DNA from: Dechloromonas agitata is5
GTDB lineage: Bacteria; Pseudomonadota; Gammaproteobacteria; Burkholderiales; Rhodocyclaceae
Assembly: GCF_000519045.1 (NCBI RefSeq)
Contig: NZ_KI912532.1
Coordinates: forward strand, 2,480,001-2,544,000
Length of the DNA stretch: 64,000 nt
Direction: 5' to 3'
Every line of letters begins with the position of its first letter. Position 1 is the first letter of the stretch. Of this stretch, positions 1 through 9,818 are shown in pieces. The position numbers and the translations under genes were made by a program. The notes beneath the pieces are model-generated. The model saw nothing but the letters and a program-made list of their open reading frames with translations. It was not told the origin of the DNA and made no database searches.

Positions 1-745
1 TCTTCGGCGACTGCCGGGCGCGGCTGGGATCGAGCGAAATGGCTGTCAGCGCCGGGATGTCGGCCTGATAGTTGCGGCCGTTCAGGCCGCGGCCGGTCTT
101 GACCAGAATGCCCGCGTCACCCAGTTCAGTCAGCAGCCGGCTGACCGTTTCCGGGGTGATGCCGAGAATGCCGCCGAAATCGGCCAGGCTCAGACGGTGC
201 ACGCGGTCGCTGTCGCCGATGCGGAGTTGCAACAGCAGGCGGGCCAGGCGAACCTTGGCCGGAACCGTGTTGCTGACCAGTTCGGAGAGCCAGGAGTCGG
301 TTTCGCGCAGGGCTTCCTGGGTTTTTTCGAGCAGGCGGAGTTGCAGTCCCGGGTGCTTGGCGATGAAGTCCTTGAAGTGGCTCATCGGAATCCGGCACAA
401 CTGGGTAGGCGTCAGGGCAATGGCCGTGTGCTGCTGTTCGTTGGCAAAAACCGAGTCGAGGCCGACGACATCGCCCTTTTTCAGGAAGCGGACGATGCGC
501 TGGTTGCCGCTGACGTCGTAGCGCAGCAGCTTGATGGCTCCCTGGCGGACGCAATACACCGCATTGGCCTGGTCGGCCATGTTGAATATCGTCGCCCCGG
601 CCTCGAAGGCCATGTCGTCGATCGGGATATGGAAGGCCGCCAGATCCTCCAGGCTGACATCGGCGCAGACCATGGTGCTGCGCAGGGAACACGTGAAGCA
701 GTTGCTACGACCGGAGCAGGTGTGGGTGCGATTGATAGTGGCCAT
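1..745 (-). CDS. FNR-like Crp-family transcriptional regulator (3' end outside window)
   Basis: The reading frame starts at an ATG at 745 (an in-frame stop lies three codons upstream) and runs off the left edge, giving 248 visible residues. It has an N-terminal cysteine cluster (Cys10, 16, 19, 27), a cyclic-nucleotide-like beta barrel, a central cysteine near 117 (LCRIP) matching the fourth cluster ligand of E. coli FNR, a long dimer helix and a C-terminal helix-turn-helix ending TPETVSRLL. Together these suggest an oxygen-sensing [4Fe-4S] FNR-type activator/repressor. The spacing C-x2-C-x7-C differs from E. coli FNR, so cluster binding is inferred. It lies 88 bp downstream of the copper operon on the same strand; no clear terminator separates them, so read-through is possible. 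Confidence 0.85.
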   Translation of the reverse strand, partial: MATINRTHTCSGRSNCFTCSLRSTMVCADVSLEDLAAFHIPIDDMAFEAGATIFNMADQANAVYCVRQGAIKLLRYDVSGNQRIVRFLKKGDVVGLDSVFANEQQHTAIALTPTQLCRIPMSHFKDFIAKHPGLQLRLLEKTQEALRETDSWLSELVSNTVPAKVRLARLLLQLRIGDSDRVHRLSLADFGGILGITPETVSRLLTELGDAGILVKTGRGLNGRNYQADIPALTAISLDPSRARQSPK

Positions 746-833: not shown

Positions 834-3260
834 TCAACGCTGCAGGCGTAGGGAATTGGCGACGACCGAGACGGAGCTCATCGCCATTGCCGCGGCGGCG
901 ATCATCGGATTCAGACGGCCGGTGGCAGCGGACGGAATGGCGATGACGTTATAGCCCAGCGCCCAGAACAGGTTCTGGCGAATGATCGCCATCGTCCTGC
1001 GGGAGAGGTCGATACCGGCCGCGACGCGGGCGATGTCCCCGCCGACCAGCGTGATGTCGGCCGATTCGACGGCGATGTCGGCGCCGCCACCGATGGCGAA
1101 GCCGACGTCGGCAGCGGCCAGGGCGGGGGCATCGTTGATGCCGTCGCCGATCATGCCGACCTTCTCGCCGGCGGCCTGCAGTTCGCGCACGGCGGCCAGC
1201 TTGTCGGCCGGCGTGCAGCGGGCCAGCACGCGGTCGATACCGACCTCGCGGGCGACATGGCTGGCCACGGCCTCGACGTCGCCGGTCGCCATGACCGTCT
1301 TCAGGCCCAGGCGATGGAGCAGGGCGATGGCTTCGGCGGCACCCGGTCGTGGCTGGTCGGCGATGGCGAAAATGGCGACCGGCCGCCCGTCGATCGCGGC
1401 GTAGACCGGCGTCTTGCCCTGATCGGCCAGGCGGCCGGCTTCATCGGCGAGCGCTGTCAGGGCGATGCCCCTTTCTTCGAGCAGGGCGGCATTGCCGATG
1501 ATGATGTCGAGGCCGTCCACCCGGGCGGTGACGCCGCGCCCGGGATGGGCGGCGTAAACCTCGGCTGTCAGGCTGTCCTTCAGGCGTGGCTTGCTCCATT
1601 CGCCCAGCGCGCGGGCCAGGAAGTGCTCCGAACCGGCTTCGGCAGCGGCGACCAGCGACGCCAGGCGGTCCTCGCCCATGCCGGGCAGGATGAAGGCATC
1701 GGTCACCACCGGCTTGCCCTCGGTGATCGTGCCGGTCTTGTCGAATACGACGGTGGTCAGCTTGGCGGCCGTTTCCAGTGCCTCGCCATGGCGGATGTAG
1801 ATGCCGCGCTTGGCCGCCTGCCCGGTGCCGACCATGATCGCGGTCGGTGTGGCGAGGCCGAGGGCGCAGGGGCAGGCGATGAGCAGTACGGCGACGGAAT
1901 GGGCCAGCGCAGCCGAAACCGGCGCTCCGGCCAGTGCCCAGCCGCCGAAGGTAAGGGCGGCAACGCCGCCGACTGCCGGTACGAAGCGGGCGGAGATGCG
2001 GTCGGCCAGTTTTTGTACCGGCAGCTTGCTGCCCTGCGCGTGATCGACCAGTTTGACGATGCCGGAGAGCACTGTATCGCCGCCGATGGCGGTGACGGTC
2101 ATCGTGAAGCTGCCGTTGCCGTTAAGGCAGCCGCCGATCACCGTATCGCCCGGCGCCTTGGCGACCGGCAGCGACTCGCCGGTGATCATCGCCTCGTCGA
2201 TGCTGGAGCGGCCTTCCAGCACCCGGCCGTCAGTCGGCACCTTGTCGCCGGAACGGACACGCAGCACGTCGCCGAGTTGCACGTCGTCGATGGCAATCTC
2301 GCGCTCGTTGCCATCGGCCTCGATGCGCAGCGCGGTTTCCGGCTGCAGTTCGATCAGCTTGCGGATCGCCTCGCTGGCCTTGCCCTTGGCGCGCTCTTCC
2401 ATGTAGCGGCCGAGCAGGACGAAGGTGCAGATGCCGGCTGCCGATTCGAAATAGACATGGTGATGCATCTTCAGCACGCCGGGGATGCTGTAAACCCAGG
2501 CCGCGCCGGAACCGATGGCGATCAGCGTGTCCATGTTCGCTTCGCCCTGTTTGGCCAGCGCCCAGGCCTTCTTGAAAATGCTCTGGCTGCTGCCAAACAG
2601 GATAGCGGAAGACAGCACGAATTCCATGACGCGCAGGGTGGGCGAGCGGTGCATCATCATGCCGGAGATCATCACCGGAACGGTGAGCAGGGCCGATTGC
2701 ACGAAGCGCTTCTTCGCTTCCTCGACCCGTTCCTTTTCGCGCTCGACGAGCAGGCGGCGTTGCGACAGCGTATCCATCGGCCGGGCTTCATAGCCGAGGC
2801 GGCGCACGACCTCCGACACGCCATCGCGGTCGATCACGCCCTGCACCGTGACGGTTGCTGCCGCAAAGTTGACGGCGGCGTTGCGCACGCGCGGATCGCG
2901 CTTCAACTTCATTTCGATGAGCAGCGCACAGGAAGCGCAGGTCATGCCTTCGACCGCCACCGAACATTCGCTCACTGGTCCATCGACCGGCGCGGCAGCG
3001 ACCGGTTGTGCCCTGGGGGCGGCGACCAGGTTGCCGAGTACGGCATCGAGCGTTGCCAGCAGGCGTTCCTCGGGCAGGGCGAGCGGGTCGAAGCGGATGG
3101 CCAGCGAGCCGATGTCGGCTACGATGGCGACGTCCTTCACCGCCGGGTGCTTGCGCAGCAGGATTTCCAGGATGTAGCAGCGTTCAGCCTCCTTGACGAG
3201 CGGCGGTGCAATGACCCGGATGCGGCGTGAAAGGCGGTGAACGACGCGAAAATGCTTCAT
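834..3260 (-). CDS. copA: P1B-type copper-translocating ATPase with tandem HMA-like domains
   Basis: This 808-aa inner-membrane pump should move Cu(I) out of the cytoplasm using ATP. Residues 10-85 form a ferredoxin-like HMA-type domain without CxxC; a second HMA domain carries GMTCASC at 105-111. Then come the membrane CPC motif (ACPCALG, about 463), phosphorylation motif DKTGT (about 508), GDGINDAP (about 705), and the TM7 YN and TM8 MxxSS residues of Cu(I) pumps (YN about 770, MAMSS about 790). The nucleotide-binding signature reads SEHF instead of SEHP. The start at 3260 is chosen because its ATG overlaps the upstream TGA (ATGA). It is last in the operon. Whether it detoxifies copper or feeds enzyme assembly (CcoI/CtpA-like) cannot be told from sequence. 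Confidence 0.93.
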   Translation of the reverse strand: MKHFRVVHRLSRRIRVIAPPLVKEAERCYILEILLRKHPAVKDVAIVADIGSLAIRFDPLALPEERLLATLDAVLGNLVAAPRAQPVAAAPVDGPVSECSVAVEGMTCASCALLIEMKLKRDPRVRNAAVNFAAATVTVQGVIDRDGVSEVVRRLGYEARPMDTLSQRRLLVEREKERVEEAKKRFVQSALLTVPVMISGMMMHRSPTLRVMEFVLSSAILFGSSQSIFKKAWALAKQGEANMDTLIAIGSGAAWVYSIPGVLKMHHHVYFESAAGICTFVLLGRYMEERAKGKASEAIRKLIELQPETALRIEADGNEREIAIDDVQLGDVLRVRSGDKVPTDGRVLEGRSSIDEAMITGESLPVAKAPGDTVIGGCLNGNGSFTMTVTAIGGDTVLSGIVKLVDHAQGSKLPVQKLADRISARFVPAVGGVAALTFGGWALAGAPVSAALAHSVAVLLIACPCALGLATPTAIMVGTGQAAKRGIYIRHGEALETAAKLTTVVFDKTGTITEGKPVVTDAFILPGMGEDRLASLVAAAEAGSEHFLARALGEWSKPRLKDSLTAEVYAAHPGRGVTARVDGLDIIIGNAALLEERGIALTALADEAGRLADQGKTPVYAAIDGRPVAIFAIADQPRPGAAEAIALLHRLGLKTVMATGDVEAVASHVAREVGIDRVLARCTPADKLAAVRELQAAGEKVGMIGDGINDAPALAAADVGFAIGGGADIAVESADITLVGGDIARVAAGIDLSRRTMAIIRQNLFWALGYNVIAIPSAATGRLNPMIAAAAMAMSSVSVVANSLRLQR

Positions 3261-3859
3261 TTGGTCTTGCGGTAGCGGACAAGCAGGAAGACGAGGTAGA
3301 AGGTGGCCAGCCAGGCGTTGCTGTTGGCGATCGGATTCTGCAGCCAGCGCTTGGTGATCAGGTCCCAATGCACCCGGATCAGATAGAAGGCGACGATGTC
3401 ATTGAAGAAATTGGTGATTGCCTTCTCGGTCAGCGCACTGTCGACAATCGGCTGGAAGCGTGCCTGCAGTGAGCCTTCCGGGGGCGGCTCGGCCGGCAGC
3501 AGGCGGGCCTTCAGCTTGTCGAGCAGGGGCTGGAAGCCCTGTTCCAGCGACCAGGCCGGGGTAGCCGGCGCGGCGTCGGCCGGCATTGCGGCAGTGTCGA
3601 GCGGCAGGGCATCCACCACATCAAAAAGCTGGCGGGCGACTTGGGCGGTCGTTAGTTGGGCAGCGTCGTAGCGAATGGAAATCCGTTGCCAGCCGGTATC
3701 GACCGCCGCGCTGAGAACGCCAGTCAGGGTTCTCACCCCGGCGCCCAGGTCGGCCGCGACGTCCGGTGTGCACAACTCGGCCGGCAGTTCCAGCCGCAGA
3801 AAACCCCGCTCGCGATGGCAGACGACGATACGTCCGGCCAGTTGGGCAGCTTGCGACAT
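3257..3859 (-). CDS. HMA-like ferredoxin-fold membrane-anchored protein
   Basis: The 200-aa product has an N-terminal region (about 8-90) with the spacing and hydrophobic pattern of a heavy-metal-associated fold, resembling the degenerate first domain of the adjacent ATPase, but without a CxxC metal site. An Ala/Pro-rich linker follows, then a C-terminal helix near 178-195 that could span the membrane and ends in basic RYRKTK. It overlaps the ATPase gene by 4 bp (ATGA) and follows the Met-rich protein by 10 bp. Proteins of this sort often accompany P1B ATPases; a regulatory or docking subunit is a reasonable guess, not shown by sequence. Confidence 0.75.
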   Translation of the reverse strand: MSQAAQLAGRIVVCHRERGFLRLELPAELCTPDVAADLGAGVRTLTGVLSAAVDTGWQRISIRYDAAQLTTAQVARQLFDVVDALPLDTAAMPADAAPATPAWSLEQGFQPLLDKLKARLLPAEPPPEGSLQARFQPIVDSALTEKAITNFFNDIVAFYLIRVHWDLITKRWLQNPIANSNAWLATFYLVFLLVRYRKTK

Positions 3860-3869
3860 GGTGTATTCC

Positions 3870-4247
3870 TCAGGCGGCCGGTGCTTCCGTGGCCGGGGCC
3901 GGCGGTGTGCTGCGACCTTCCAGTTTTTCCTCGGCCTCGGCCATCAGGTCGTTGAGGTTTTCCTTCTGGTTCAGCGCGAAATCCTTGCCCATGCCGCTGA
4001 CCTTCGACAGGCCCTCGACGATTTCCTTCTGGTACTTGAAGAGCAGGAAGCCGGCTGCGATGCCGCCAGCGGCACCAACTGCCAGCAGGGCCAGCGGGTT
4101 GCGCAGCAAGGTGTTGCCGAGCAGGCCGCGACCGGCTGCAAAGCCCGTGGCAGCCATCATGGCGCCGGTGGCGACGGGTTTGGTCATCATCTGCCCGGCC
4201 TGGCTCATCATGTGCGGCATTTGCTTCATCATTTCTTCGGTCATCAT
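3870..4247 (-). CDS. Small Met-rich membrane protein of the copper operon
   Basis: The 125-aa product begins with a cluster of Met residues (MMTEEMMKQMPHMMSQAGQM) of the kind that can coordinate Cu(I), followed by a glycine/alanine-rich hydrophobic segment (about 65-85) and an acidic charged C-terminal tail. The ATG at 4247 is preferred because AAAGGAAC sits 5-10 bp upstream; an in-frame TTG at 4262 overlaps the upstream stop. Its place between the Cys-rich mini-protein and the HMA-like protein suggests a membrane copper-handling role. It loosely resembles DUF5132-type proteins found next to metal ATPases, but I cannot confirm the family. Confidence 0.75.
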   Translation of the reverse strand: MMTEEMMKQMPHMMSQAGQMMTKPVATGAMMAATGFAAGRGLLGNTLLRNPLALLAVGAAGGIAAGFLLFKYQKEIVEGLSKVSGMGKDFALNQKENLNDLMAEAEEKLEGRSTPPAPATEAPAA

Positions 4248-4258
4248 GATCGTTCCTT

Positions 4259-4441
4259 TCAAGAACTCTTAGGCTGATTATCGTTGTTGTCCGGCGTCGC
4301 TTCCTTGATGTCATGCAACATCTCGTAGATTCCGCGGCAACCCTCGCAGCAGAACTGGTATTGCTTGTCCGGTGTGTGCAGGAGGAAAGGCTTGGCGCCG
4401 ACATCGAGTCCGCACAGATCACAGGCCCGATTCTCACTCAT
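4259..4441 (-). CDS. 60-aa Cys-rich metal-binding domain protein
   Basis: This mini-protein contains CDLCG near residue 7 and FCCEGC near 31, a pattern matching the small metal-binding domain normally fused to the N terminus of CcoI/FixI-type copper ATPases (the ATPase-cat_bd type). Here it stands alone as a separate gene, and the copper ATPase is encoded three genes downstream. The start overlaps the TlpA-like stop by 4 bp (ATGA). A cytoplasmic Cu(I) handling role is likely by analogy. The C-terminal half is acidic and probably disordered. Confidence 0.8.
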   Translation of the reverse strand: MSENRACDLCGLDVGAKPFLLHTPDKQYQFCCEGCRGIYEMLHDIKEATPDNNDNQPKSS

Positions 4442-4929
4442 TTGAGTAATTCCAGGGCATGGCGCTCGAAGGTCACTTCGTCGGCCTCACCAACGATCTT
4501 GGCCCGCACAATGCCCTTGCCATCGATGAAGAAAGTGGTTGGCAGGGCGACGACGCCATAGTTGCGGGCGATGGTCGATGTTTCGTCGAGCAGGGCGGGG
4601 TAGGTGACGCCGATTTTCTTGATGAAGGCGTCGATAGTCTTCTTGTCCTGGCCGGCGTTGATCGCCAGCACCTCCAGTCCCTTGTCCTTGTGACGCTGAT
4701 AGACGGCCTCGATCGCCTTCATTTCGCCTTCGCAATACTTGCACCAGTCGGCCCAGAAGCGGATGACCAGTGGCTTGCCGAAGAAGGCCGCGGGGAAATG
4801 TGTGGCGCCGCCATCTGCCCGGAAGGTCTGGAAGGTGGGGGCAATGCTGCCGATATTGATATTGGCCTTGGGGGCATCGTTGCCACAGGCCGCGAGGAGC
4901 AGCGTGGCAATGAGCAGGAGGATGCGCAT
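4438..4929 (-). CDS. TlpA-like thioredoxin-fold lipoprotein
   Basis: The 163-aa product has a signal peptide with lipobox LLAAC (Cys15), so it is probably membrane-anchored facing the periplasm. The thioredoxin fold shows FWADWCKYC with redox cysteines 63 and 66 and the cis-proline segment VALPTTFFI. TlpA/ResA-type proteins reduce disulphides in metallochaperones and apo-enzymes; TlpA is known to act together with Sco proteins on the CuA site of cytochrome oxidase. The sco gene lies at the head of this same operon, supporting that partnership. It starts 1 bp after the upstream membrane-protein gene ends. Confidence 0.88.
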   Translation of the reverse strand: MRILLLIATLLLAACGNDAPKANINIGSIAPTFQTFRADGGATHFPAAFFGKPLVIRFWADWCKYCEGEMKAIEAVYQRHKDKGLEVLAINAGQDKKTIDAFIKKIGVTYPALLDETSTIARNYGVVALPTTFFIDGKGIVRAKIVGEADEVTFERHALELLK

Positions 4930-4930
4930 G

Positions 4931-5938
4931 TCAGTGTTCGATCAGGATCAGGTTGGAAGCCAGTATGAACCAGGTGGAGAGTGCCGTGAACAGCAGGAAA
5001 CCGGCAGCGGCCAGTTTGGCCAGCCGGGCGGAAACCCGCGGCACGATGGTGGCTAGGCTAGGCCGCCCGGCGAAGGACTGCATGGCCCCGGCGCCGAGCC
5101 CGGCTGCCGTGGCGATGAAGAGCGGGATGTACAACCCGTAGCCCTGGTAATCGTACTCCGGCTTCAGGATGCAGAAGGGGCAGTGGTGATGCGGGTGTTC
5201 GTAGATGTAGAGCGAAACGAAGGAGAGCACACCGGTTATCGCGGCAACGAAGCCCGCACCACTGGTCAGGGCGGTCAGGAAGCCGCTTGCCCGGCCGCCT
5301 CGGCGGCCATGCCAGAGGGAGGCGGCGATGGCAGCCAGCATGCCGCCATAGAACAGCCAGAGGGCGGGCAGGGGTTCGAGGCTGGTCGCTTCGGCGGTGA
5401 TGGTCTTGCTCTCCTCGGAGAACATGCTGCCGCAGCAGGAGGTGATCACGTTGGCCTTCAGGTTGACGAAATACTGCACTTCCAACCAGAGATTGGTGGC
5501 GAGGACAGGCAGCAGGAGCAGGAGCAGCACGTACTTGATGCGGACCAGCGGATAGTCGCGGGCCAACGTGTCGACATGGTTGATCGCCAGCCAGATGGCA
5601 GCCAGGAAGAACACGGCCATCTGCGCGATCAGCGACGGAAACCCCCAGGCGTTGACATTCAGCGTGCCGACCGCGCACATGGCGCCGACGAACATCACCG
5701 ACAGCCGGTCGGCGTTGAAGACGAAGAGCAGCAGCGCGGCCAATTGGGCGACGAGGACGAAGGTGAGCAGCGTCGAGAACAGGTAGGTGCGGCGTTCCAG
5801 CGCCAGCTGGCGTTCCGAACCGCTGTGGATGTCCCAGTGGCGGATGACCTGGACAGCGAAGGGCGCCGCGCCGGCCAGCATGACGACGGCCAGGCCGGCA
5901 GCCAGCAGCAGCGCGATGATGGCGGGCTGGAAGAGCAT
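4931..5938 (-). CDS. Polytopic membrane protein with HPHHHCPFC motif
   Basis: The 335-aa product has about eight predicted hydrophobic helices. Two segments stand out: SCCGSMF near residue 167 and a loop reading HPHHHCPFCILKPEY near 245, rich in potential copper ligands. I do not recognise a named family. The gene overlaps the ABC ATPase gene by 1 bp and sits 1 bp before the TlpA-like gene, so it is almost certainly co-translated with both. A role in binding or passing copper at the membrane, with the ABC transporter, is inference from the ligand-rich motifs and the operon. Confidence 0.78.
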   Translation of the reverse strand: MLFQPAIIALLLAAGLAVVMLAGAAPFAVQVIRHWDIHSGSERQLALERRTYLFSTLLTFVLVAQLAALLLFVFNADRLSVMFVGAMCAVGTLNVNAWGFPSLIAQMAVFFLAAIWLAINHVDTLARDYPLVRIKYVLLLLLLPVLATNLWLEVQYFVNLKANVITSCCGSMFSEESKTITAEATSLEPLPALWLFYGGMLAAIAASLWHGRRGGRASGFLTALTSGAGFVAAITGVLSFVSLYIYEHPHHHCPFCILKPEYDYQGYGLYIPLFIATAAGLGAGAMQSFAGRPSLATIVPRVSARLAKLAAAGFLLFTALSTWFILASNLILIEH

Positions 5939-6612
5939 CAGTCGTCGGTCAACCGGCCGTCGCGCATGCCGACGACGCGATGTACGGCAGACGATTCGAC
6001 GACCAGTGGGTCGTGGCTGGTCAGCAGCACTGTCTTGCCGGCTGCCGTGAAGCCTTCGAGGATGGCCATGAATTCCTTCGACAGCGCCGTATCCAGGTTG
6101 GCCGTCGGTTCGTCAGCGATGATGACTTCCGGGTCGTTGATCAGGGCGCGGGCAATCGCGACGCGCTGCTGTTCGCCGCCGGAGAGCCATTCGACCTTGG
6201 CGGCACTGCGATGGCCAAGCTTGAGCTGGTCGAACAAGGCGTCGGCGGCCGAAATCAGTTCACGACGCGGCCGGCCGGTCGGAAAGGCGGGCAGGATGAC
6301 GTTTTCCAGGGCCGAGAGGCCCTTGATCAGGTTGAATTGCTGGAACACGAAGCCGAAGCTCTGCCGGCGGATGTCGGTCAGGAAACGTTCCGGCAGGCCG
6401 GAGATGTCTTCGCCCTTGAAGCGCACCCGGCCGCTGGTCGGCCGCGACAGGCAGCCGACGATGGTCAGCAGGGTCGTCTTGCCGGAACCGCTCGGGCCGC
6501 GGAAGGCAGTGACCTTGCCGGCTTCCAGCGCCAGGTCGATGCCGTGCAGCGCCCAGTATTCATTGGGTTTGCCCTGGTTGAAGGCTTTCTTGATGTCGGA
6601 GAGTTCGATCAT
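5938..6612 (-). CDS. ABC transporter ATP-binding protein, MacB/LolD type
   Basis: The 224-aa ATPase has Walker A GPSGSGKTT (residues 39-47), signature LSGGEQQRVAIARAL, Walker B VIIADEP followed by the D-loop, and a switch histidine in TSHDP. Length and the SATANLD-like ATP-ADEPTANLD segment fit the MacB/LolD/FtsE class, which uses ATP to work mechanically on periplasmic or membrane-bound substrates. It overlaps the FtsX-like permease gene by 4 bp (ATGA) and the downstream membrane-protein gene by 1 bp. Its substrate is unknown; the copper context is the only clue. Confidence 0.9.
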   Translation of the reverse strand: MIELSDIKKAFNQGKPNEYWALHGIDLALEAGKVTAFRGPSGSGKTTLLTIVGCLSRPTSGRVRFKGEDISGLPERFLTDIRRQSFGFVFQQFNLIKGLSALENVILPAFPTGRPRRELISAADALFDQLKLGHRSAAKVEWLSGGEQQRVAIARALINDPEVIIADEPTANLDTALSKEFMAILEGFTAAGKTVLLTSHDPLVVESSAVHRVVGMRDGRLTDD

Positions 6613-7745
6613 GCGCGCATTACCGCGTCGGGGTCCGTGATGGCGGCGCGCCAGATCGGCACCAGCACCGCGGCCGTGTAGGGGAATACCGTGAAGAAAA
6701 ACAATGTGGCGATCTGCAGGCCGTCGATGGTCGGCACCAGGGTGAAGCTCGGATAGAGCACCGACCAGCCCTTGAGAACCGGTTCGAAGACCGCCGCGCC
6801 GAGATGGAAAACGTGCACGTAGGCAGCGATGAAGCCGAGCAGGAAGGCGGTCAGCGAAATGAGCAGTCCTTCCCAGGATTTCATGCGGATGACGTCGCCG
6901 GTTTCCCAGCCAATGGCCTTGAGGATGCCAATTTCCCGCTTTTCCTCGGCCGACAGTCCGGAGGCCTTTTCCCAGGCGAGGATGGCGAAGGCCAGGATGG
7001 CGCCGGCCAGCACGGTCAGCACGATGCCCTCGCGCCAGTCGAAAACGCTCTGATAGGTGCGCAGCACTTCCTCGCGCAGGATGGGCCGGGAATCGGGCAG
7101 CGAACTCGACAGCTTGGCCGCGATGTTGCGCACTTCCTGCGGATTGGCGACGGAGAGCGCGATGTCGGTAAAATGGCCGGCCGGGTATTCGAAGAATTTG
7201 CGGAAATCGTTTTCCGAGAGCAGCACCAGGTCGGCTGACAGCAGTTCCGAATCGGGCGACAGGACGGCCGACACCTCGAAGGTGAACAGCTTGCCGGAGT
7301 AGGAGCGGAAGGAGATGGTGTTGTGTGCCGCCAGGCCGCGCTCCCGGGCCAGCGTGTTGCCGACCATGATGTAGCCGTCCTTGACCTCGTCGGCCGGCCG
7401 CGCCATGAAGGTGTAGTTGGCATTGAGCACCGGGTCGTAGTAATACCCCCAGAGGCGGCCTTCCTTCTTCTGAACGCCGCGGAGGCGACCGATTTTCTCG
7501 ATGTAGTCGGGCGGGATCAGGTCGTGCCGGCCGGCGACCATGCGCTGCAGGATGACCTCCGGCGAACTGGCCAGCACGAAGGTTGCTTCGCTGCGCAGGG
7601 CGTGGGTGAACAGGGTCAGCGAGGCCAGCACGAAAACGATCAGGGTGTAGGCGACGAGCAGCCCGATGTTCTTGGTCTTGCGCCGGCCGAGCGAGGCCAG
7701 CGTGAAATCAATCAGGTGTAGTTGTTTTTCCAGCCAGGGGCTCAT
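6609..7745 (-). CDS. FtsX/MacB-family ABC transporter permease
   Basis: The 378-aa product has the FtsX/MacB layout: one transmembrane helix near 25-50, a large periplasmic domain (about 55-230), then three C-terminal helices. The segment EEKREIGILKAIGWETGDV is the typical coupling region before the last helices. It pairs with the ATPase encoded immediately downstream. Its start lies inside the end of the 108-aa gene (38 bp overlap), indicating translational coupling. MacB-type permeases usually move lipoproteins, peptides or act on a partner rather than move ions, so a role in releasing or maturing a copper-binding lipoprotein is conceivable but not shown. Confidence 0.88.
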   Translation of the reverse strand: MSPWLEKQLHLIDFTLASLGRRKTKNIGLLVAYTLIVFVLASLTLFTHALRSEATFVLASSPEVILQRMVAGRHDLIPPDYIEKIGRLRGVQKKEGRLWGYYYDPVLNANYTFMARPADEVKDGYIMVGNTLARERGLAAHNTISFRSYSGKLFTFEVSAVLSPDSELLSADLVLLSENDFRKFFEYPAGHFTDIALSVANPQEVRNIAAKLSSSLPDSRPILREEVLRTYQSVFDWREGIVLTVLAGAILAFAILAWEKASGLSAEEKREIGILKAIGWETGDVIRMKSWEGLLISLTAFLLGFIAAYVHVFHLGAAVFEPVLKGWSVLYPSFTLVPTIDGLQIATLFFFTVFPYTAAVLVPIWRAAITDPDAVMRA

Positions 7746-8034
7746 GGGGTTTCAATGCAGAGGGGCGTGGGGCCAGCAGCGAGCCGCTCGGGAAATGTTC
7801 GAGCGCGCCGGGGTGATCCTGAAAGGCCGAATGCAGATCGGCCTGGCTCGGGTGGCGAGTGTAGCGGGCCTCGGTAAACAGGGCCAGGTCGGTGAGGCCG
7901 TATTTTTCGACCAATGCCCGGTTGTCCGCCAGTTTCTGTTCCGCTTCGCGGGCCTGGCCCGGATTGGCGAGCAAAGCCGCCGCGGCCAGCGAAAGAATGG
8001 CGAGCCCACTTATCGCGAAGGTCGATGGGCGCAT
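7708..8034 (-). CDS. 108-aa exported or membrane-anchored protein of unknown function
   Basis: The product has a hydrophobic N terminus (about 7-24) that can act as signal peptide or anchor, then a charged helical part and a proline-rich tail. There are no cysteines and few candidate metal ligands. It starts on the last base of the sco stop codon (TAATG) and its 3' end overlaps the permease gene by 38 bp in another frame. The overlap and the unbroken operon argue that it is real. No family recognised. Confidence 0.65.
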   Translation of the reverse strand: MRPSTFAISGLAILSLAAAALLANPGQAREAEQKLADNRALVEKYGLTDLALFTEARYTRHPSQADLHSAFQDHPGALEHFPSGSLLAPRPSALKPHEPLAGKTTTPD

Positions 8035-8585
8035 TACAACTGCTTCCGGATGGCGGCCACGATGGCGTCGGGCGAAGCGCCCAGTTCGATGACTTGCGCC
8101 AGTTTGCCGTCGGTACCGATCACATAGGTGGAGGTCGTGTGATCGACGGCATAGCTGCCGTCGCCCTTGGCTGGTTGTTTGTTGTAGCCGGCGCCAAAGG
8201 CCTTGGCCAGGGCGGCGATTTCCTGCGGCGTGCCGGTCGCGCCGGCCATGTCGGGGTGGAAGAAGGCGGTGTATTCCTTCAGGTGCTTGACCGTGTCGCG
8301 TTCAGGATCGACAGAGATCATCAGCAACTTGACCTGGGCGCGTTCCGCCGGCTTGAGCGCCTTCAGCGCCTGGCCGCCGGCCGCCAGCGAGGCAGGGCAG
8401 ATGTCCGGGCAGTTGGTGTAACCGAAATACACCAGCAGTACCTTGCCACGCAGCTGGCGGGAATCGATAGGCCCGTCGGCCGTTTGCAGCAGGAAATCCG
8501 CGCCGGCCGGTAGCTTCGGGTCGCGCCCCGGCTGGCAGCCAAGCAGGCAGGCCACGACAAGGCCGATCAGGGAGAGTCTTTTCAT
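8034..8585 (-). CDS. SCO1/SenC/PrrC-type copper chaperone lipoprotein
   Basis: The 183-aa product has a lipobox (ACLLGC, Cys17) and a thioredoxin-like fold with the Sco motif TNCPDICP (Cys59, Cys63) and the distal histidine in VDHTT (His149), the three residues that bind copper in Sco proteins. Sco proteins deliver Cu to the CuA centre of cytochrome oxidase or sense redox state in the periplasm. It is the first gene of the overlapping operon. A strong terminator-like hairpin ends only 9 bp before its start codon, so expression may depend on read-through or on a promoter I cannot place. Confidence 0.93.
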   Translation of the reverse strand: MKRLSLIGLVVACLLGCQPGRDPKLPAGADFLLQTADGPIDSRQLRGKVLLVYFGYTNCPDICPASLAAGGQALKALKPAERAQVKLLMISVDPERDTVKHLKEYTAFFHPDMAGATGTPQEIAALAKAFGAGYNKQPAKGDGSYAVDHTTSTYVIGTDGKLAQVIELGASPDAIVAAIRKQL

Positions 8586-8594
8586 GTTCCGGGG

Positions 8595-8624
8595 AAAAAA
8601 ACAGGCAGACTGCGAGTCTGCCTG
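8595..8624 (-). terminator. Rho-independent terminator or attenuator upstream of sco
   Basis: On the minus strand a perfect 10-bp stem (CAGGCAGACT/AGTCTGCCTG, loop of 3) is followed by seven Ts. It lies after the 58-aa gene and immediately before the sco ribosome-binding site. Confidence 0.85.
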
Positions 8625-8652
8625 TGGGGCCGGAATCAGGCTAGCATCTGGG

Positions 8653-8829
8653 TCAAAAACGATTGGCTGCTCGCATCAGGGCGCCGCGCAGGGCGATGGT
8701 GACGCTGGAACCAAGACCGACGCGCTGGGCAACCGCAGGCAGGATGATCAGCGAGGCCAGGGCAAAGCCCGCGCCGAGCAGCAAGGAAGCCATTTCCGGC
8801 TGGTTCTGGGTTTGCGGTTTCTGGTTCAT
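8653..8829 (-). CDS. 58-aa single-helix membrane protein
   Basis: An ATG at 8829 is preceded by GGGAG at a suitable distance. The product starts with a polar Gln/Pro-rich stretch (MNQKPQTQNQPEM), then a hydrophobic helix (about 14-34, ASLLLGAGFALASLIILPAV) and a short basic tail. It is followed by the terminator before sco and reads from the same intergenic region as the divergent sirtuin gene. No family recognised. The good ribosome-binding site, membrane-helix composition and terminator support a real small gene. Confidence 0.65.
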   Translation of the reverse strand: MNQKPQTQNQPEMASLLLGAGFALASLIILPAVAQRVGLGSSVTIALRGALMRAANRF

Positions 8830-8884: not shown

Positions 8885-8901
8885 TGCGACATATTGTCGC
8901 A
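8885..8901. promoter_or_regulatory. Palindrome in divergent promoter region (TGCGACA-N3-TGTCGCA)
   Basis: A perfect inverted repeat with 7-bp arms and a 3-bp spacer sits between the minus-strand copper region and the plus-strand sirtuin gene. A further inverted repeat, CTACCC/GGGTAG, lies at 8915-8932. These are candidate operators; the odd spacing does not fit the usual FNR or CRP site. Confidence 0.45.
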
Positions 8902-9032
8902 CCGTGACGCACCCCTACCCTGATTGGGGTAGCGTCGATCCGCTCATTCGCATCATTCACGTAGACGGGAACAACGGCGTCAAGGCAACCTTGATCGGCC
9001 TGTTCCCGGGTCTGGAGGAGGTCTTGCTGCAC

Positions 9033-9818
9033 ATGGACACAACGGTCGACACCGTCATCGAGGAAATCGCCTGCCAGCTGCGGCAGGCCAGGCGAGCCTT
9101 GTTCATCACCGGCGCCGGTATCTCGGCCGATTCTGGATTGCCGACCTATCGCGGTGTCGGCGGGTTGTACGACCGGGAGTTAACGGCCGAGGGCATCCGT
9201 ATCGAGGAGGCGCTCTCTGGCGAACTGTTCGCCGTTTGGCCGGAGATTACCTGGAAATACCTGATCGAGATCGAGAAGAACTGTCGCGGGGCACAGCCCA
9301 ATGCGGCACACCGGGCGATTGCCCGGCTCGAGGATCATCTGGAGCGCGTGATGGTCTTCACGCAGAACGTGGATGGCCTGCACCGTGCGGCGGGTAGTAA
9401 GGATGTCGTCGAGATTCATGGCAACCTGCAGGAGCTGACTTGCACGGTCTGTGCGCATCGGGAGACCGCCGGCGACCTGACGGGGCGGGAGATTCCACCG
9501 CGCTGCCCGGCCTGCCGGGGCATCCTGCGTCCGAATGTCGTCCTGTTCGGCGAGGCTTTGCCGAACGACGAGATGGAGCGCTTCATTGCGGCATTCCAGG
9601 AGGGCTTCGACATCGTTTTCAGCATTGGTACGTCGAGCGTTTTTCCCTACATCGTTGAGCCGATGATTGTGGCTGCCAACCAAGGGATACCGACGGTCGA
9701 GATCAATCCGGCACGCACGCAACTGAGCGATATCGTCGATTTCTATGTGCCGCTCGGGGCAGCGGATGCGATGAGCCGCCTCCTCGAGGCGCTGGGCCTG
9801 GATGCGGTGGATTCCTGA
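9033..9818 (+). CDS. SIR2-family NAD-dependent protein deacylase
   Basis: The 261-aa sirtuin removes acyl groups from lysines using NAD+. Visible motifs: GAGISADSGLPTYRG near residue 27 (NAD binding), TQNVDGLH and the catalytic His in EIHGN, a zinc site of two CxxC pairs (CTVC and CPAC), and GTSSVFPY for nicotinamide/NAD contacts. The ATG at 9033 follows a GGAGGAGG stretch 11 bp upstream and fits the family N terminus; an upstream in-frame start at 8904 would add 43 residues unlike the family and cross the promoter region. It is a single gene, divergent from the 58-aa membrane protein gene. Confidence 0.92.
   Translation: MDTTVDTVIEEIACQLRQARRALFITGAGISADSGLPTYRGVGGLYDRELTAEGIRIEEALSGELFAVWPEITWKYLIEIEKNCRGAQPNAAHRAIARLEDHLERVMVFTQNVDGLHRAAGSKDVVEIHGNLQELTCTVCAHRETAGDLTGREIPPRCPACRGILRPNVVLFGEALPNDEMERFIAAFQEGFDIVFSIGTSSVFPYIVEPMIVAANQGIPTVEINPARTQLSDIVDFYVPLGAADAMSRLLEALGLDAVDS

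Follow-up and report, generated by a model that had tools for sequence, protein, structure and literature searches.

What does a tightly packed set of copper genes do with an ATP-binding cassette (ABC) transporter in its midst, and which copper enzyme does it serve? The question is raised by a locus of Dechloromonas agitata is5 (family Rhodocyclaceae), in a window of 64,000 nucleotides starting at position 2480001 of one 3.63-Mb contig. Ten open reading frames (ORFs), tightly packed on the minus strand between window positions 834 and 8585, encode a Sco chaperone, a TlpA-like thioredoxin, a free-standing TRASH domain, a P1B-type ATPase, an FtsX-type permease, an ABC ATPase and four conserved proteins without a curated family over cut-off: p108, a polytopic protein with eight transmembrane (TM) segments, a Met-rich protein and a 200-residue protein. 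To judge from gene content and conservation, this is a conserved copper-handling system for which no name was found; it is larger than first described, and its new partner, the NosL-domain protein NosLc, is firm in the host family. That it forms a type VII ABC copper-handling machine of the envelope, acting with NosL and Sco chaperones on behalf of nitrous oxide (N2O) reductase in the host family and of other cuproenzymes elsewhere, is a reading that we rate at about even.

Core genes and NosL partners

Scanning GTDB genomes with 26 aligned polytopic proteins as the query gave 450 relatives. Locus counts rest on the best-scoring 80 of these 450, which come mostly from Rhodocyclaceae, with Gallionellaceae, Nitrosomonadales and some Burkholderiales besides; gene calls in the fetched loci were mechanical and based on GC content at third codon positions. 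Upstream of the polytopic gene, FtsX and the ABC ATPase are present in all 65 loci with enough upstream sequence, p108 in 64, where it precedes FtsX, and sco in 43. Downstream, among the 60 loci with the core and a further 4.5 kb, TlpA occurs in 48 and the P1B ATPase in 42, and the 47 loci with long flanks hold NosLb/NosLc in 29 cases and a DsbD_2 protein in 27. More distant stretches contain the polytopic protein in 15 of 18 cases, all 15 with FtsX and ABC and 13 with p108. Because of these counts, the core is taken to consist of p108, FtsX, ABC and the 8-TM protein, to which Sco and CopA blocks are commonly added; as far as gene order can tell, the four-gene core is one unit.

Genomes were drawn from the host family (150, of which 26 carry the polytopic protein and 124 do not), from the class (369, ten carriers outside the family) and from the phylum (299, five further carriers), giving 41 carriers in all. 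In the family draw, the polytopic protein, FtsX (E<=1e-8) and NosLc occur in the same 26 genomes and in none of the other 124 (Fisher p 1e-29 for NosLc and the polytopic protein, kinship ignored), the carriers belonging to 19 of 68 genera. Close linkage does not account for this co-inheritance, since NosLc lies 20-63 kb away from the core in genomes G101, G023, G080, G046 and G041. A NosL domain of any kind is found in 26 of 26 family carriers, against 47 of 124 non-carriers, and in all ten class-draw carriers, and a NosL-type gene stands near the core in all five further phylum-draw carriers. By these presence patterns, the core is co-inherited with NosLc in the family sampled, and the NosL pair is the strongest partner identified for the ABC core.

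The pair had been overlooked in a sequence-only reading of the operon. Its genes lie beyond the left edge of the window: the end of a CRP/FNR-type gene is followed there by the gene of a DsbD_2-family membrane protein and after it by NosLc and NosLb (two PF05573 proteins, 104.3 and 47.2 bits, cut-off 24). That reading had proposed a copper-trafficking unit without a named system, and the counts bear it out: in the family draw, FtsX at the above threshold is confined to genomes with the polytopic protein rather than occurring mostly in unrelated contexts, carriers occur beyond close relatives, and the ABC module proves to be a fixed component dedicated to the unit. Among the open-access literature matches listed, none describes the gene combination in its title or the start of its abstract.

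A third NosL type adjoins a TonB-dependent receptor in loci L042 (13628-14191), L045 (8793-9365), L048, L050, L063 and L084. In L042 and L045 its neighbours resemble what we take to be FecI/FecR genes (here as for NosF, NosY, NorC, formate dehydrogenase and SIR2, the names are presumed from sequence appearance), and copper uptake via a sigma-factor-controlled receptor is possible. In the close relative G112 (L192 4944-7889), an extra NosL-type gene and a TonB-dependent receptor stand between the CRP and DsbD_2 genes. A distant relative, locus L170 of genome G518, has a polytopic protein that is 27% identical, with NosL-, p108-, FtsX-, ABC- and 8TM-like genes; no nosZ match and no ccoN over cut-off were found in G518.

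Gene products and predicted folds

The sequence-only reading had described a ten-gene operon in which nine genes overlap by 1-38 bp or abut within 10 bp, and all ORFs and junctions are confirmed (seven overlaps, of 1, 38, 4, 1, 4, 4 and 4 bp, and two gaps, of 1 bp and 10 bp; Table 1). Its assignments of Sco, TlpA-like, TRASH, FtsX, ABC and P1B ATPase proteins agree with family matches over curated cut-offs. The P1B ATPase also matches TIGR01511 (565 bits, cut-off 397) and starts at the ATG at 3260; the listed TTG start at 3368 would overlap the preceding gene. The label HMA-like given to the 200-residue protein has to be dropped, as it has no Pfam match over cut-off, the best being CHAD (17.5 bits, cut-off 25.6). 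Searches with p108 and the polytopic protein yielded no Pfam or NCBIfam match at E<=0.05, and the only match of the Met-rich protein is TagQ (19.1 bits against a cut-off of 300).

Table 1. Features of the operon and its flanks, by window position
Feature	Position	Strand	Evidence
CRP/FNR-family regulator, end a few bases outside the window	1..745	-	cNMP_binding 71.7 bits, HTH_Crp_2 41.1 bits; ORF is L127 18994-19746
P1B-type Cu(I) ATPase, CopA/CcoI class	834..3260	-	E1-E2_ATPase PF00122 189.4 bits, PF00702, HMA PF00403 44.4 bits
200-residue protein of no matched family	3257..3859	-	H164 invariant, 55 rows
Met-rich membrane-associated protein	3870..4262	-	conserved Met residues; no Pfam match over cut-off
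Free-standing TRASH / ATPase-cat_bd domain	4259..4441	-	PF12156 29.5 bits (cut-off 27)
TlpA/ResA-like thioredoxin, likely lipoprotein	4438..4929	-	AhpC-TSA PF00578 96.8 bits
Polytopic 8-TM protein, 335 residues, core	4931..5938	-	AlphaFold2 model, invariant Cys/His
ABC ATPase, MacB/LolD/FtsE class, core	5938..6612	-	ABC_tran PF00005 110.2 bits
FtsX-type (type VII ABC) permease, core	6609..7745	-	PF02687 26.7 bits (cut-off 25.5)
p108, N-terminal hydrophobic stretch and conserved His, core	7708..8034	-	no family match
Sco/SenC copper chaperone, likely lipoprotein	8034..8585	-	SCO1-SenC PF02630 139.5 bits
Terminator-like hairpin between small ORF and sco	8601..8625	-	11-pair stem and T run
Small membrane protein, 58 residues, upstream ORF	8653..8829	-	relatives in 46 of the 65 loci whose upstream flank is long enough
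Palindrome TGCGACA-TAT-TGTCGCA, candidate RegA/RegR-type operator	8885..8901	.	sole match with <=2 mismatches in window

The ten-gene extent stands in so far as the genes are real; conserved genes continue on both sides, the set with its flanks amounting to about 15 neighbouring genes, and a hairpin (8625-8601) precedes sco. This hairpin, together with an extra palindrome before NosLc, suggests more than one transcript. Similar hairpins, with a stem of at least 8 pairs and T4, occur in 13 of 38 relatives; hairpin-like sites in the region number 5 against 6.7 in shuffles, so they are not commoner than chance. An attenuator that would produce the small protein in excess is a possible role. Divergent from the operon lies a gene for a presumed SIR2-like deacetylase (8904-9818).

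Copper or thiol motifs are conserved in Sco, TlpA, TRASH, NosLb, NosLc and DsbD_2 proteins. In Sco, C59 and H149 are invariant and C63 is kept in 93% of 55 rows; in the TlpA-like protein, C63 and C66 are invariant and C15, in a lipobox recognised by eye, is kept in 99% of 79 rows. The TRASH protein, whose domain we take to be the type located at the CcoI N-terminus, has five invariant Cys (56 rows), and p108 keeps H61, H74 and H80 in 96-100% of 80 rows. The 8-TM protein has seven invariant residues (C88, C168, C169, H251, H252, C253 and C256; 45 rows), and its AlphaFold2 model, with a predicted local distance difference test score (pLDDT) of 86.4 and a predicted template modelling score (pTM) of 0.88, displays eight long helices and no clear PDB fold match. 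C88, C168-C169 and the motif EHPHHHCPFC sit in loops poor in Lys/Arg; these motifs are predicted to be periplasmic because the positive-inside rule puts such loops outside.

The FtsX model is of middling confidence (pLDDT 77.5, pTM 0.63). Foldseek returned 64 PDB matches at E<=0.001, including LolCDE chain E (6e-16) and MacB (1e-13), and the best 50 of the 64 belong to LolCDE, MacB, HrtBA, YbbAP, FtsEX, Bce, YtrEF and a pneumococcal transporter. By PF02687 and by the model, the permease has the FtsX fold with a periplasmic domain between TM1 and TM2 that marks type VII ABC systems (MacB superfamily); a review of these systems is PMC5985334. The modelled LolCDE/MacB-like fold would allow the ABC module to act mechanically on a lipoprotein chaperone.

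Candidate control site and likely client enzyme

Matches to the pattern TGCGACA-N3-TGTCGCA with at most two mismatches are expected 0.5 times by chance in the window and one, perfect, was observed; the site at 8885-8901 therefore gains weight only with comparative data. In 49 of the 64 loci that extend at least 4.2 kb upstream, a palindrome with at most one mismatch lies no more than 300 bp ahead of the operon's first gene. The 80 loci (1.2 Mb) contain 85 such palindromes, 56 of them at the start of the operon, 8 ahead of NosLc, 5 ahead of hits to TonB-dependent receptors, 1 ahead of a TlpA hit and 15 elsewhere, and base-shuffled sequence (0.62 Mb from 40 loci) contains none. In the host genome, a perfect copy precedes NosLc and a one-mismatch copy lies about 55 bp before nosZ.

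Before nosZ, the palindrome (at most one mismatch) is found at 18 of 28 genes of family carriers, namely all nosZ listed for the 20 nosZ-bearing ones, and at 16 of 27 sampled genes of family non-carriers, a non-random draw from 25 of the 62 nosZ-bearing genomes. The upstream regions of five further carriers, taken from separately fetched stretches, are included, and the shuffled control gives 0.008 hits per base-shuffled 2.2 kb even at two mismatches. Because the nosZ counts are alike, the palindrome appears to be a common nosZ control site of the family, shared by the copper operon, and no mark of carriers. It agrees by eye at 10 of 11 specified positions with the RegR motif given in PMC5506826, and in Bradyrhizobium RegR is reported to govern nor, nos and genes of copper homeostasis (PMC4064962). 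Next to the nosZ of the host is a RegB/RegA-like pair (239 and 167 bits, below the cut-offs of 350 and 250). The 8885-8901 site is thereby a candidate RegA/RegR-type operator; the linked CRP/FNR protein is doubted as its binder, given the fit to the RegR motif and the RegB/RegA-like pair. One-mismatch copies at L122 11199 and L127 1684 precede ORFs presumed to be NorC-like and formate-dehydrogenase-like, the pattern expected of a global redox regulon.

Within the family, nosZ is present in 20 of 26 carriers versus 62 of 124 non-carriers (p 0.016) and, when only genomes with a completeness of at least 90% and no more than 5% contamination are counted, in 20 of 23 versus 54 of 105 (p 0.002). Carriers outside the family have it in 9 of 15 cases, so that 29 of 41 carriers do overall: nosZ is enriched, not obligatory. 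The NosL pair adjoins nosZ in G046 and G101, and in locus L117 (Thauera) the core stands beside nosD-, nosF-, nosL- and nosY-like genes. NosL itself is described as the chaperone that provides Cu(I) for the CuZ site and is needed when copper is low (PMC7558416; PMC6530538). The cbb3 oxidase gene ccoN passes the cut-off in 134 of the 150 genomes of the family, whether or not these carry the system, and is uninformative on the client for that reason. Among the cuproenzymes named in the sequence-only reading, N2O reductase thus gains support from enrichment, some adjacency and a common control site, and cbb3 oxidase as a specific client loses it. N2O reductase is likely a client in the host family, to judge from these genomic associations, and not the sole one. 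In each of G019, G080, G023, G029, G106 and G088, one contig carries two nosZ genes, separated by about 5-8 kb.

Several observations weigh against a tie to N2O reductase. Of the 32 strong NosLc genes that the 80 loci contain, only 8 are preceded by the palindrome, and, at up to two mismatches, it precedes none of the ten nosZ genes of carriers outside the family. No nosZ was detectable in 12 of 41 carriers, which rules out a system dedicated to NosZ; the six such carriers in the family are drafts of 130-570 contigs, and G285, one contig and 100% complete, carries the core with neither nosZ nor ccoN over cut-off. The 62 non-carriers with nosZ, two of them in the genus of the host, have it without the system, which is therefore not required for N2O reductase. 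The nos cluster of the host already holds NosD, NosF-like and NosY-like genes and a NosL of its own, and Sco-like and PCuAC genes are found in the same locus.

Known systems, rival explanations and proposed mechanism

One close comparison is with NosDFY-NosL, in which an ABC machine is likewise paired with a NosL-domain protein, and some loci do lie in a nos neighbourhood. The operon differs in its FtsX-type permease, in its two extra NosL proteins, p108 and the 8-TM Cys/His protein, and in that nosZ is not obligatory; none of the ten genes matches NosD, which is located with the NosY-like gene in the separate nos locus. Sco and TlpA-like proteins recall the TlpA-Sco-PCuAC route to CuA sites, from which the operon differs by the lack of a PCuAC match and by the added ABC machine and NosL pair. 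With MacB of MacAB-TolC the system shares the type VII ABC fold, and MacB is the best NCBIfam profile of the ATPase, below cut-off; here, however, ATPase and permease are separate genes and no MacA-type match occurs among the ten. The FtsE score is 188 bits, against a cut-off of 264.85.

Four other explanations were weighed. A set for cbb3 oxidase assembly, made of a split CcoI (TRASH and P1B ATPase) with DsbD_2, Sco and TlpA proteins, is improbable in our view. The TRASH/ATPase-cat_bd and DsbD_2 families and the P1B ATPase are indeed shared with CcoGHIS, and 38 of 41 carriers have a ccoN that passes the cut-off (25 of 26 in the family, 13 of 15 outside). Its presence says little, however, where it is near-universal, and the core occurs without it in the complete G285 and the drafts G518 and G065, so that a cbb3-dedicated system is ruled out. 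Furthermore, the TRASH domain has its own gene rather than forming the N-terminus of the P1B ATPase, no ccoG- or ccoH-type match lies among the ten genes, and the CopA block was not found in 18 of the 60 loci with downstream sequence. Export of excess copper from cytoplasm and periplasm by the ABC machine and the P1B pump is equally hard to favour: a Cu(I) ATPase is there, and a role of the Met-rich and TRASH proteins in copper storage or buffering is conceivable, but the delivery chaperones Sco, NosL and TlpA, the TonB-dependent receptors (importers) adjoining the system in a number of loci and the control site shared with nosZ speak against it.

Still less likely is a Lol-like machine that would extract or position the copper lipoproteins Sco and TlpA in the membrane and make no contact with copper. 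In fold and profile searches alike the permease matches LolCDE subunits best, the ATPase is separate as in LolCDE, and the operon encodes likely lipoproteins (lipobox by eye); but the LolCE match of 40.7 bits is far under the cut-off of 362.45, a single permease gene stands in a copper gene context in place of a two-permease heterodimer, and the Cys/His conserved in the 8-TM protein and in p108 are left unexplained. The least probable is an exporter of heme or of thiol/disulfide compounds, of HrtBA or CydDC type, that serves respiratory enzymes indirectly; HrtBA is among the Foldseek matches and the 8-TM protein has CxxC and CC motifs, but no heme gene was seen among the conserved operon genes, whose constant partners are copper proteins.

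For the copper-handling machine with NosL/Sco chaperones, we infer the following mechanism. Type VII ABC systems spend ATP in the cytoplasm to move domains in the periplasm and pass no substrate through the membrane. By analogy, ATP hydrolysis by the FtsX-ABC pair would move periplasmic domains and, together with p108 and its conserved His and with the 8-TM protein, whose five invariant Cys and His-rich motif are predicted to face the periplasm, load Cu(I) onto NosLb, NosLc and Sco or unload it. The position of a type VII ABC machine among Cu(I) chaperones suggests that this loading or release is ATP-gated, and it may occur at the 8-TM protein as a hub. TlpA and the DsbD_2 protein would keep the thiols that bind Cu in the reduced state; Cu(I) would come from the cytoplasm through the P1B ATPase, acting with the free TRASH domain and the Met-rich protein. 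The main client in the host family would most likely be N2O reductase, at low oxygen and under RegA-type control; carriers that lack nosZ must use the system for some other cuproenzyme. More tentatively, and at somewhat less than even, the system may be a second, NosDFY-independent ATP-driven machine for copper insertion, with an FtsX-ABC motor, an 8-TM hub, p108, an obligate NosL set of its own and several cuproenzymes as clients. The interpretation given in the sequence-only reading is, overall, partly supported.

N2O reduction is the main biological sink of a strong greenhouse gas, and the insertion of copper is a weak point in it. A co-inherited ABC-NosL system with a nosZ-type control site offers defined genes for studying how N2O reductase is metallated in these bacteria at low copper, and four conserved proteins without a curated family now have a genomic context. 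The association further suggests that NosL-type chaperones may be partners of different kinds of ABC motor.

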